This document shows positions 13,044 through 42,198 of a DNA stretch of 42,198 bases, piece after piece (position 1 is the first letter of the stretch; the number at the start of each line of letters is the position of its first letter). The notes beneath the pieces were generated by a model. That model was not told where the DNA came from and did not search any database. It saw nothing but the letters and a program-made list of their open reading frames with translations. Both the position numbers and the translations under genes were made by a program. Origin of the DNA: a virus; the IMG/VR virus record IMGVR_UViG_3300045996_000343, positions 1 to 42,198 of that record, one strand, 5' to 3'.

Positions 13044-13087
13044 TATCTGACCTCGGCTTTCCTGATGGCGGAGAATCTTGCCGAGGC
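13044..13087 (+). repeat. Dispersed 44-bp repeat R7
   Basis: TATCTGACCTCGGC, then GATGGCGGAGAATCTTGCCGAGGC; 16-nt core spacing. Located in the 5' leader of rtcB. CCTCGGC and GCCGAGG could pair across the copy. Confidence 0.88.
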
Positions 13088-13130
13088 CGCGCGAACAACG
13101 AAAGGACGATATGCGAGTAATCAAGGATGA
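13065..13130 (+). CDS. 21-residue upstream ORF overlapping rtcB start
   Basis: ATG 13065 lies inside repeat R7 and gives MAENLAEAARTTKGRYASNQG, ending at 13130, past the rtcB ATG at 13111. The first nine residues match the TAESLSEAA peptide of other repeat copies. No ribosome site is visible in front of it. It could regulate rtcB translation, or be an accident of the repeat. Confidence 0.35.
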   Translation: MAENLAEAARTTKGRYASNQG

Positions 13131-14316
13131 GGGTTCACTGCCGATCAAGGCGTGGACTGACGAAATCGAGGAATCCGCGATGGCCCAACTGCGGAACCTT
13201 GCCAAGATGCCCTTTATCGCCAAGAACGGCGTAGCCGTTATGCCGGACGTTCACGCCGGGATCGGTGCGACCGTAGGCAGCGTCATCGCCAGCCATAAGG
13301 CCATCATCCCGGCTGCGGTGGGCGTGGACATCGGCTGCGGCATGAACGCCGTGCGGCTGTCCCTCAAGGCGTCGGACCTCCCGGAATCGCTCAAGGCGAT
13401 GCGTGACCAGATCGAGCGGGATGTCCCTGTCGGCTTCTCCCAGCACCGCAAGGATGATGACATCGAGGCGAACTGGCGGGACGAGCTAGGAGAGCGCGGC
13501 GACCTGTGGAATAGCTGGACGGACCTGAACGCGAAGTTCCCAGCCCTCAAGACGAAGACCGAGAACGTCCTTGGGCAACTTGGCACCTTGGGCGGTGGCA
13601 ATCACTTCATCGAGGTTTGCTTGGACGAGAATCAGGATGTGTGGATCATGCTGCACTCCGGTTCGCGCGGGACCGGCAACGCCATCGGGCGCTACTTCAT
13701 CGAACTGGCGAAGGAGGCGTGCGAGAAGTGGCACATCAACCTGCCGGACAACGACCTCGCCTACTTCCCCGAGGGGACGACGCTGTTCGATGACTACACC
13801 ACCGCTGTTCATTGGGCGCAAGAGTACGCATTCCAGAACCGCGCGGTGATGCTGGAGCGAGTGATTGCCGCCGTCCGCAAGGCCATCGGGAAGCCCTTTG
13901 AAGTGACCTCGGAGGCGATCAACTGCCACCACAACTACGTGGAGCGGGAAAGCCACTTCGGGCAGAACCTGTGGGTGACGCGCAAGGGGGCTATCCGTGC
14001 CCGTGAGGGCGATCTAGGCATCATCCCCGGCAGCATGGGCCAGCGCAGCTACATCGTGCGCGGCAAGGGCAACCCGGAGTCCTACTGCTCTTGCAGCCAC
14101 GGCGCAGGCCGGGTGATGAGCCGCACGGAGGCAAAGCGCCGATTCTCACTGGCCGATCTTGTCGCCCAGACGGAGGGGGTGGAGTGCCGAAAGGACGAGG
14201 CGGTGATTGACGAAATCCCCGGAGCCTACAAGTCCATCGACGCCGTGATGGAGAACCAGCGCGATCTGGTGGAGGTCGTCCACACGCTAAAGCAGGTGCT
14301 GTGCGTTAAAGGTTGA
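13111..14316 (+). CDS. rtcB: RtcB-type RNA ligase (3'-phosphate/5'-OH)
   Basis: 401 residues from ATG 13111, with AAAGGACGAT upstream. All core motifs are present: PDVHAGIGATVGS (45-57), VDIGCG with metal Cys 76 (72-77), GGGNHFIEV (161-169), HSGSRG (182-187), NCHHNY (271-276), PGSMG (306-310) and SHGAGR with the guanylated His 330. RtcB seals 2',3'-cyclic phosphate and 5'-OH RNA ends, so it can repair tRNAs cut in the anticodon loop. A tRNA-Pro gene follows 6 nt after its stop. Length is close to E. coli RtcB (408). Confidence 0.95.
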   Translation: MRVIKDEGSLPIKAWTDEIEESAMAQLRNLAKMPFIAKNGVAVMPDVHAGIGATVGSVIASHKAIIPAAVGVDIGCGMNAVRLSLKASDLPESLKAMRDQIERDVPVGFSQHRKDDDIEANWRDELGERGDLWNSWTDLNAKFPALKTKTENVLGQLGTLGGGNHFIEVCLDENQDVWIMLHSGSRGTGNAIGRYFIELAKEACEKWHINLPDNDLAYFPEGTTLFDDYTTAVHWAQEYAFQNRAVMLERVIAAVRKAIGKPFEVTSEAINCHHNYVERESHFGQNLWVTRKGAIRAREGDLGIIPGSMGQRSYIVRGKGNPESYCSCSHGAGRVMSRTEAKRRFSLADLVAQTEGVECRKDEAVIDEIPGAYKSIDAVMENQRDLVEVVHTLKQVLCVKG

Positions 14317-14322
14317 GAGTTT

Positions 14323-14400
14323 CTGTGCGTAGCTCAGTCCGGTCAGAGTTCTCGGTTTGGAACCGAGGGGTCGCAGGTTCGAATCCTGCCGCACAGACCA
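14323..14400 (+). tRNA. tRNA-Pro (anticodon UGG), complete with CCA
   Basis: Perfect 7-bp acceptor stem CTGTGCG/CGCACAG, D arm GCTC..GAGT, anticodon stem CTCGG/CCGAG around TTTGGAA (anticodon TGG at 14358-14360), T arm GCAGG-TTCGAAT-CCTGC, discriminator A and encoded CCA (14398-14400). It starts 6 nt after rtcB and lies 185 nt before the integrase start. It can be a functional tRNA, the attP core (phages often integrate in tRNA 3' ends), or both. Confidence 0.95.
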
Positions 14401-14585
14401 GCTTCCCGCATTTTCCCCGCAATTTGCGGGCGATTTGCGGGGTAAGTACAGGTCCTCTCTCCGGCATTCCTATAGGGCGCGGTGTTTGTCAATACATCGC
14501 TTTCCCCTGTGATAGCCGTCAGCAACGGCATAGCCTTTCCCGCTCGCGTCCCGCAAACTTCCCGCACTCATGCGGGAGGATTCGG
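14401..14585. other. Putative attP arm region and integrase promoter
   Basis: 185 bp between the tRNA and integrase. It holds repeated TTCCCGCA/TGCGGGA words (14403, about 14549, 14558, 14570) and the inverted repeat CCCGCAATTTGCGGG near 14415-14430, as expected of integrase arm sites or IHF-linked attP architecture. A possible promoter is TTGTCA (14486-14491), 16 nt, TGTGAT (14508-14513). Roles are inferred. Confidence 0.6.
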
Positions 14586-15551
14586 ATGTACGTCAGACCA
14601 TACGGCAAGGGCCAGTTCAGGTGCGAGGTCGAGAAGCTAGGGGTTCGGGAGTCTCAGGTGTTCGACCGCAAGGGCGATGCCGTCAAGTGGGGCAACCAGC
14701 GGGAGCTTGAGATTGAGGCCGAGAAGACCGGACGAGGGGTGACGTTCGGCCAGGTTGCGGGACGGTATTTGCGGGAAGTGACGCCCGGCAAGAAGTCTGC
14801 CACGGACTTTGAAACCCGACGGATGGGCTACTTCAAGGCGTTTTTTGGGGAGTCCACCCCGATCCTGTCCATCACCCGGAAGACCATCGCCAAGTGGCGG
14901 GACCACCGGCTACAGACGGTCACCGGGTCTACCGTGAACCGGGAAGCCAACCTCCTGTCCAACCTGTTCCGTAAAGCCCGGATGGATTGGGAGTACATCC
15001 AAAGTAATCCCATGGAGGGGATTGACTGGCCGGACGAGGAAGACCCTCGCACTGTGGTTTGGAACTGGCGGCAGATCAGAAAGGTTCTGCGGTACTGCCA
15101 AAGCTCCCAAGGCATCAAAACCCAACAGTGCGGGATAGCCTTTCACATTGCCCTGCGGACAGCCATGAGGGCTAAGGAAGTGCTCCTGGCCACCAAGCGC
15201 GGGCAGCTCGCCGTGATAGACGACAGCAAGACGACCAAGAAGGGGAAGGAAATCACCATCCCACTGACCCACCAGGGACGCAGGGTCATGGAGCGGTACG
15301 CCGGTACGCCGTGGCAGATCGAGGCCAACGAGCTGTCCGTGCTGTTCCACAAGGCTTGTCTCCAGTGCGGAGTCAGGCAGAAGCACGTAGACGGACCCAC
15401 GTATCACGACTCACGCGGGACGGCGCTGACCCTGCTTGCTCGGAAGATGCCGGTGGAGAAGTTGCAGCGGATCAGTCGGCATCGGAACATCAATACGCTA
15501 ATCCGCGTGTACTACCGCGCGACCAATGAGCAGATTGCAGCGAGCCTGTAG
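14586..15551 (+). CDS. int: Tyrosine recombinase integrase
   Basis: 321 residues from ATG 14586 with GGAGGATTCGG upstream; a longer in-frame start would run through the tRNA. Arm-binding and core-binding regions precede the catalytic domain with R195 (TAMRAKEV), a Lys in SKTTKKGKEI (215-221), H274 and R277 (HDSRGTAL), H299 (SRHRNINT) and nucleophile Y309 or Y310. Together with the adjacent tRNA this is a standard tRNA-targeting integration module. Confidence 0.93.
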   Translation: MYVRPYGKGQFRCEVEKLGVRESQVFDRKGDAVKWGNQRELEIEAEKTGRGVTFGQVAGRYLREVTPGKKSATDFETRRMGYFKAFFGESTPILSITRKTIAKWRDHRLQTVTGSTVNREANLLSNLFRKARMDWEYIQSNPMEGIDWPDEEDPRTVVWNWRQIRKVLRYCQSSQGIKTQQCGIAFHIALRTAMRAKEVLLATKRGQLAVIDDSKTTKKGKEITIPLTHQGRRVMERYAGTPWQIEANELSVLFHKACLQCGVRQKHVDGPTYHDSRGTALTLLARKMPVEKLQRISRHRNINTLIRVYYRATNEQIAASL

Positions 15552-38071: not shown

Positions 38072-38125
38072 TTACGCTCCTGCCGCTACGGTCGTTGCAT
38101 CGACCAAAAGCCATTGGTTTGACAT
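38072..38125 (-). CDS. 17-residue ORF before structural gene
   Basis: MSNQWLLVDATTVAAGA, with a strong site (CGGAGACAACT) before ATG 38125 and a stop 3 bases from the next ATG. May couple translation or be a remnant. Starts with MSN as does its downstream neighbour. Confidence 0.45.
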   Translation of the reverse strand: MSNQWLLVDATTVAAGA

Positions 38126-38143
38126 AGTTGTCTCCGAATCTCG

Positions 38144-40215: not shown

Positions 40216-40229
40216 TGAGGCTCCAGAAT

Positions 40230-40253
40230 GAGAAAAGCCACCCGTAGGTGGCT
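40230..40253 (-). terminator. Intrinsic terminator before first late gene
   Basis: AGCCACC-TACG-GGTGGCT followed by TTTCTC on the minus strand, a perfect 7-bp stem. Second of two in the late leader. Confidence 0.85.
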
Positions 40254-40397
40254 GTGAAGTTCCGATAGTGGAACGGCAATATGCCGGGGAAGCTCTGTGA
40301 CGAGGGCGGCATCAGACTTACGCCCTCTAACCGGGCGGCTGATTCCAATATGGTGTCTAACGAGCTTCCCCCGTGCTGGGGTGGCGGGTGCCAGAAT

Positions 40398-40431
40398 GAA
40401 GAAGGCCCGCTATCCATGAGGATGCGAGCCC
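40398..40431 (-). terminator. Intrinsic terminator in the late leader
   Basis: GGGCTCGCATCC-TCAT-GGATAGCGGGCC, with one bulged base, followed by TTCTTC on the minus strand. Suggests a tR'-like block to be overcome by the Q-like protein. Confidence 0.72.
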
Positions 40432-40788
40432 TTTGTGTTTGGACGGTGTATTACAGCCCCAGACCGTCAGGCCATAGTTGGGTTTGCCCGCTGTCCCTGC
40501 GATGGTTCCACCTATCCCAAAGGAAGCTGCATGGGCCTCTTATCGGTGGTCGCCTGATACAGACAGAGCAAAAGGGTAGCGTCTAGACGTAGGCTTCACT
40601 TCGGACTTTCATCCCCCGGCTTCGTTTCCGCACACTTAATGGGCGTTGCGCTCAGGTCTAGCTAGGCCGCTACTCTTTTGCACTTTCCGAAGGCACCTAT
40701 CCAACGAAAGAGGCGCCCTTATTATTAACGGAGGATGCCCCTCCACTTTGCAGGTGCGCCATCCTGCCAGAACTTAAAACGTATGTCT

Positions 40789-41316
40789 TTACCGTTCGTC
40801 GGACAAATTAAACCTCGGAGCCAGCATCGCCATAGCCGCACTACCTGCCGCAGCCTGTGCCCGGTCTATCTCTTGTGACAACCAACGGGCCAGGTCGCGC
40901 GTTTCATGGGGAAATTGACGGTCGAAGTTGAGTTTCCCCGTCGCTAGGCAGTGGGAGCACTCATCCCCTTGGATCGGGGTGTCCTTGATGACCGTGTAGC
41001 CCGTCCCTCCGCAGGGCAGGCAGATGCCGTGCCGGTAATATGCCAAAACAGCCTTAGAGAGGTCTTCAGCCTCCACGCGGGAGAACTTCAGGCGAAGGGT
41101 GCGGGACCGCTTGAATGCCATCTCCGTCAGCTCCATGACCACCGGGCCGGGCTTGCCATCGGCAAACAGGCGGGTCAGGGCGATTCCGAGGGCGTGCCCG
41201 TTCTTTGCTGCCAGCCCTGAGGCTCCGAGAACGTCCGTGTCGGAGAAGGTGGTTCGCTCGTCCACCGTGAGGTTGTCCGAGTTGACCGCTTGGGCGTAAC
41301 GTTCCGTGATTCTCAT
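40789..41316 (-). CDS. Late antiterminator Q-like protein
   Basis: 175 residues (MRITERYAQAVNSDNLTVDE...). Helical N-terminal part, then a zinc finger CLPCGGTGY and CSHCLATGK (about 99-130), and a helical end (DLARWLSQEIDRAQAAAGSA). The finger plus gene position (last early gene, before late leader with terminators) match phage Q antiterminators. It should let RNA polymerase pass the two terminators. Confidence 0.78.
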   Translation of the reverse strand: MRITERYAQAVNSDNLTVDERTTFSDTDVLGASGLAAKNGHALGIALTRLFADGKPGPVVMELTEMAFKRSRTLRLKFSRVEAEDLSKAVLAYYRHGICLPCGGTGYTVIKDTPIQGDECSHCLATGKLNFDRQFPHETRDLARWLSQEIDRAQAAAGSAAMAMLAPRFNLSDER

Positions 41317-42059: not shown

Positions 42060-42198
42060 TCCTGCTCAATCCTCTTTTCCATGCGTCTTAGGCGCTTGCC
42101 CATGACTGCCTTAAACCGCTTGTAGTAGTCGATAGGCGGCTTGAACGTCTGGTTCTGCGCCATCAGCCAATCAACCTTGTCTTGCCCGATCTTTGCGA
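42056..42198 (-). CDS. ninG: ninG C-terminal part (second window copy)
   Basis: The bases 42075-42056 encode the true end of NinG (up to KRIEQE), read on from position 1 of the circle. Bases 42076-42198 repeat the coding at 1-123. Joined, the gene is 558 nt (185 residues plus stop). Confidence 0.85.
   Translation of the reverse strand, partial: AKIGQDKVDWLMAQNQTFKPPIDYYKRFKAVMGKRLRRMEKRIEQE
42076..42198. repeat. Terminal direct duplication (copy 2)
   Basis: Exact copy of bases 1-123; see the first entry. Marks the closing point of a circular map. Confidence 0.9.

Follow-up and report, generated by a model that had tools for sequence, protein, structure and literature searches.

The 573-bp stretch between a candidate late antiterminator gene and the first gene of the late operon (positions 40216-40788, minus strand, of the window, i.e. 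the whole 42,198-nt phage DNA analyzed here) is probably the late-operon leader of a lambda-like temperate phage, controlled at its terminators and carrying a new RNA element, termed D. Judged by sequence comparison, D is a real, narrowly distributed RNA element that belongs to no Rfam family. The first-pass annotation had described the stretch as a structured RNA in the position of the lambda late leader. As a late leader it is retained as the best-supported reading, with covariation found in segments A and D, but the structured length was overstated and the identity of the Q gene is weak.

Genome organization and the Q-like gene

The two ends of the window share a 123-bp repeat (1-123 and 42076-42198), and the window is therefore regarded as a circularly closed, probably complete phage genome. 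Across this join, the minus strand encodes a replication initiator, a DnaB-like helicase, an HNH protein and the candidate antiterminator P0001 (40789-41316, 175 aa), followed by the 573-bp stretch, a 161-aa protein, a 528-aa protein and TerL, with an SU10-type portal, scaffold and capsid beyond TerL. The plus strand carries an integrase, tRNA-Pro and an RtcB ligase. This gene order is that of a lambda-like temperate phage. The first late-operon gene, P0002 (39730-40215, minus strand), encodes the 161-aa protein, which had zero matches in Pfam and is not assigned to a family; its homologs are 55% identical in contigs L077/L078, whose TerL is 53% identical to that of the window, and 33% identical in L087. 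Its ribosome-binding site UGGAGCC (40219-40225, minus strand) follows directly 3' of the second terminator, T2, and UGGAG is kept in all relatives. Just 3' of the genes for the 161- and 528-aa proteins, which differ among relatives, 59 bp (38078-38136) are identical to relative L082 and form the conserved edge of a swapped cassette.

The designation of P0001 as Q-like, made in the first-pass annotation, draws on its position directly 5' of the leader, a CxxC...CxxC zinc-finger motif and a weak similarity between its zinc-finger region and phrog_127 'anti-termination protein Q-like' (E 0.22, 0.03 per genome). On the other side, the Pfam Q families PF06530, PF03589 and PF06323 were not matched, nor was any other Pfam family at E<=10, and the assignment is accordingly a weak one. 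PF06530, PF03589 and PF06323 are the three Q families named in PMC7171158. The protein is 97% identical in relatives L082-L084; its AlphaFold model (pLDDT 47) was too poor for a fold search. A 140-aa protein in the Q position of L077 (L077:1561-1983, before T1) carries LLNQW..GGLGY..HWW..YY. It appeared Q21-like by eye and was rejected, with PF06530, other Pfam, PHROG and NCBIfam models unsupportive.

The window yielded no strong promoter. Between the Q-like gene and the terminators, a simple sigma-70 matrix scan gave the candidate TTGTCC-17-TACGTT (40778-40806, minus strand), which constitutes weak evidence, with a rank of 10 among the minus-strand candidates of the genome. The candidate of the relatives at the same place differs (TTGGCG-18-TAGGAT), being top-ranked in L082 and weaker, at rank 7, in L084.

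Conserved elements of the probable leader

Six phage contigs were available for comparison. L082, L083 and L084, which were retrieved by the Q-like protein search and not by a terminase search (80 loci), contain the whole region; L083 and L082 are nearly identical in the leader. Their alignment with the window revealed that segment A, the terminators T1 and T2 and element D are conserved, while the middle is non-homologous. Of the RNA claimed to be structured over 573 bp, these four parts stand, whereas about 240 nt in mid-stretch proved to be a variable insert. Leader length ranges from 304 nt in L077 to about 380 nt in L082 and 486 nt in L084. The coding strand has no frame open throughout and no frame is conserved in the relatives, in agreement with the earlier statement that the stretch is non-coding. 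Its overall stability was modest relative to shuffled sequences (z -2.2 on the minus and -1.9 on the plus strand), and its 150-nt windows ranked 114th to 1594th of 1682 in a genome-wide fold scan. A 149-nt frame picked after inspection (40235-40383) reached z -4.65, which none of 200 shuffles attained, and its counterparts in relatives gave z -3.46, -3.46 and -3.58.

Segment A lies proximal to the Q-like gene; over the Q gene and this segment, identity is about 90%. It consists of three stem-loops on the minus strand. Stem-loop a (40750-40767, GCAGG/CCUGC), with its 3' arm within the invariant block ACCURCAAAGUG, shows one compensatory pair (C-G to U-A); in stem-loop b (40730-40744, GGAGG/CCUCC), both partners differ at two pairs (G-C/G-U/A-U and A-U/C-G); and in stem-loop c (40690-40718, GGCGCCU/AGGUGCC), the 3' arm is conserved and the 5' arm varies, both partners differ at two pairs, and L084 has a G.G mismatch. 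Altogether 5 of 23 pairs changed on both sides among three sequences. Segment A is missing from L077, where T1 begins only about 55 nt after the preceding gene, and copies of the A motif upstream of other operons were not above chance.

T1 (40402-40433, minus strand) is a terminator-like hairpin conserved in L082-L084 and L077. Its U-run is poorer in the window than in relatives, and it is strong in L082 and L077. Between T1 and T2, the minus strand encodes D, a folded RNA of about 125 nt, of which a 66-nt block is identical across the window and L082-L084, in contrast to the about 90% identity over the Q gene and segment A. Its P1 domain (40286-40371) comprises a 10-bp closing helix (40362-40371/40286-40295), a 3-bp inner helix and a variable apical hairpin, with pair probabilities of 0.9-1.0. 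The closing helix is perfect, as first described, and 10 bp were reached in only 2 of 60 shuffles. The perfect 7-bp hairpin said to be enclosed by it is likewise present (40302-40327, read from the sequence), but relatives lack it and the lowest-energy fold is in competition with it; hairpins with GAAA loops also occur in the stretch as reported. P1 is followed by HP2 (40275-40285, GGCAUAUUGCC), which is invariant in the window and L082-L084 and broken or missing in L077, and by HP3 (40259-40274, GUUCC-ACUAUC-GGAAC), invariant in L082-L084 and remade with compensation in L077. An invariant CUUCAC linker then leads into the intrinsic terminator T2 (40236-40259, AGCCACC/GGUGGCU-UUUCUCAUU), which is predicted as a terminator in the window, L082, L084 and L077. 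Two of the seven pairs of its stem vary with compensation, one of them with three pair types. In L084, D and T2 are intact although the downstream gene is an unrelated 576-aa gene, which argues against their being just the leader of a single gene family.

An alternative hairpin, CCCC-AGCAC-GGGG (40369-40381, minus strand), would be mutually exclusive with P1, and L077 can form the equivalent CCCC-UCUU-GGGG. One may speculate that this conserved alternative is a folding intermediate or a switch.

CUUCAC directly before T2 (window 40236-40259; L077:2239-2268) is invariant in D-bearing phages and was not found before the other AGCC..GGCT phage terminators examined. The pattern CTTCACAGCC-terminator-GGAG was discarded after it matched terminators of unrelated phages; among loci not retrieved by this pattern, TTCAC precedes D-type terminators only.

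The distant homolog L077 provided a further comparison. With the L077/L078 leader, blastn detected nothing, its matches lying inside the 161-aa gene only. Closer examination of L077 revealed, before the 161-aa homolog and in unchanged order, T1, a P1-closed domain, HP3, a CUUCACAGCC block and T2, and its minimum-energy fold on its own adopts the same architecture (z -3.58). Model R1, built without L077 and run with filters off, found the D of L077 as the sole extra match in 67 kb (12.2 bits, E 0.25), directly 5' of the 161-aa protein homolog. The alignment score of T1-D-T2 between L082 and L077 was 8 sd above shuffles, while the core sequence alone showed marginal similarity, reached in 104 of 2000 shuffles. 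In the structure alignment, which had been fitted to the model and contains only three different sequences of D, 94.5% of cells pair and 11 of 33 pairs changed on both sides, a result not reached in any of 500 shuffles; sliding the partners lowered pairing to 36-49%. P1 is the strongest case of covariation, with 4 of its 10 pairs compensated and none broken in L077, in addition to one of the three pairs of the inner helix. Covariation had been proposed beforehand as a check of the structured RNA, and segments A and D both exhibit it.

Database searches point to a narrow distribution. In Rfam scans of the stretch, including the covariance models of the large phage RNAs GOLLD and ROOL, no family reached the gathering score and no match up to E 10 was credible, and scans of the relatives likewise gave no family; sub-threshold matches to nuclear RNase P and ftsZ-DE were judged to be chance. 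Searching the phage database with blastn returned short matches only, mostly to the T2 hairpin of unrelated phages. Around terminase homologs (80 loci), D was missing from all except L077/L078, and DNA patterns derived from A and D had true matches only in L082-L084 and the fragment L127. The sole bacterial genome match, L125, shares the pattern only and was dismissed as chance.

Segment B and the hammerhead-like core

The middle of the stretch, segment B (40440-40681, minus strand, 242 nt), has no counterpart in relatives, where sequence and length are unrelated (about 165 nt in L084, about 62 nt in L082 and none in L077), and it folds at chance level (z -1.3 and +0.8). The long-range helix in it that was first reported as 14 bp (40668-40681/40568-40581) is present with 13 of 14 pairs, the exception being one A.C mismatch. 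All other pairs have probabilities near 1, and 14 bp with one mismatch were reached in none of 60 shuffles. Likenesses of segment B to a cobalamin riboswitch and a group II intron, seen by eye, were without model support.

Segment B of L084 contains a hammerhead-like core (L084:4684-4731), first spotted by eye and recovered by a descriptor search with three paired stems (ACGA-CUGAUGA-UCGCC..GGCGU-GAAAC-UC-GGAA-GAGUC-UCGU, with a U10.1-U11.1 mismatch). The loose descriptor had 73 matches per 474 Mb of random sequence on one strand (0.15 per Mb per strand), which makes a chance match inside the 486-nt L084 leader unlikely. Rfam models did not report the core on L084, for which the mismatch may be the cause. 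In the window, no hammerhead was found with strict or relaxed descriptors.

At 13078-15551, the window also carries the RtcB RNA ligase gene immediately 5' of a complete tRNA-Pro (14323-14400) and the integrase. RtcB seals the end types produced by tRNA cutting or by ribozymes. The idea of a circular RNA made by RtcB and a ribozyme was dropped, as RtcB was not found in the relatives, which are partial contigs.

The U10.1-U11.1 mismatch is a described natural hammerhead variant (PMC3088659). Hammerhead ribozymes in phage intergenic regions (PMC3088659) share with the L084 leader the core CUGAUGA...GAAA...UC and three stems; in contrast to them, the candidate described here occurs in one relative only, is absent from the window and is passed over by Rfam models.

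Proposed working of the leader and comparison with known systems

We propose that transcription would start no further downstream than the end of the Q-like gene, so that the transcripts would run into both terminators, T1 and T2, upstream of the first virion gene. Late in infection, RNA polymerase would read through both with the help of an antiterminator, for which the neighboring Q-like protein is the most likely candidate. If no antitermination took place, RNA synthesis would stop at one of the two terminators and leave a 6S-like RNA. Its stable 3' part would be D, which is compact, measures about 125 nt, is followed by T2 and is probably maintained by selection as an RNA fold. This leader reading is favored by the gene order on one strand, the covariation, the retention of D-T2 across the gene swap and the fact that both terminators also lie on the late strand of the relatives.

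The terminated and perhaps processed leader could instead accumulate so that D-T2 acts chiefly in trans, regulating phage or host messages in the manner of StxS. We consider this possible but unlikely: D is compact, ends in an intrinsic terminator and is conserved better than nearby coding DNA, the hammerhead-like core 5' of D in L084 could release it, and StxS, processed from a late-promoter transcript terminated in lysogens, is a precedent (PMC7873438), yet D is always found in cis to the late operon. Equally tentative is a role of D as a new phage RNA beyond terminator control, either as a released trans-acting RNA, which a hammerhead ribozyme would free in some relatives, or as a structure sensed co-transcriptionally through a CCCC/GGGG switch.

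A less likely alternative is that segment A is a put-type RNA antiterminator acting on polymerase alone, such that read-through of T1/T2 would be independent of the Q-like protein. Three compensated stem-loops and the invariant ACCURCAAAGUG block placed before terminators are in line with such an element, but L077 lacks segment A and yet keeps T1-D-T2, no second copy precedes other operons, and the promoter candidate seen in the relatives overlaps with stem-loop a. The odds are poorer still for an element acting at the DNA level, i.e. a site where packaging starts, an anchor for recombination of the swapped tail cassette or palindromes bound by proteins. D does flank a cassette with differing genes that has conserved DNA at its other side (38078-38136), but the compensatory changes keep RNA pairing and not sequence, T2 has the polarity of a terminator, and no pointer was found to the packaging signal suggested earlier. 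Ordinary intergenic DNA with chance hairpins is a highly improbable account, which agrees with most of the 573 bp folding no better than the rest of the genome and holds for the unconserved segment B, but is disfavored for A and D-T2 by the conservation and covariation of A, T1, D and T2.

With these results, the late-leader position of lambda-like phages gains an RNA element that has covariation support and is absent from Rfam. The part of the stretch worth testing is delimited to 40216-40440, which excludes the conspicuous long helix of segment B.

By analogy, the best-supported reading is that the region would work like the Q/6S region of lambda. With the late leaders of lambda (6S RNA) and of the Q21 and Q82 types it shares a candidate antiterminator gene, a short terminator-bearing leader and the late operon on one strand. 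Intrinsic terminators lie before the late genes (T2 in all relatives as in the window, T1 in strong form in L082 and L077), and virion genes (TerL, portal, scaffold and capsid) follow on the same strand. Lambda 6S RNA is about 194 nt, in contrast to a leader of 300-570 nt with a variable insert here, and a conserved folded RNA between two terminators further sets the region apart from lambda, as does a Q family that is not recognized. Since the Q-like protein matches no Pfam Q family, we do not claim membership in the lambda-type Q regions. The put RNA of HK022 (PMC9378689) has in common with segment A cis-acting phage stem-loops that could affect termination, but the layout of the putative element differs, with three separated stem-loops before the late operon. 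StxS is a stable sRNA processed from the terminated late-promoter transcript of Stx phages (PMC7873438), a known case in which the late-leader position proved to hold a regulatory RNA; what it shares with D, as predicted here from sequence, is that the RNA forms the 3' end of a late leader cut short by termination.
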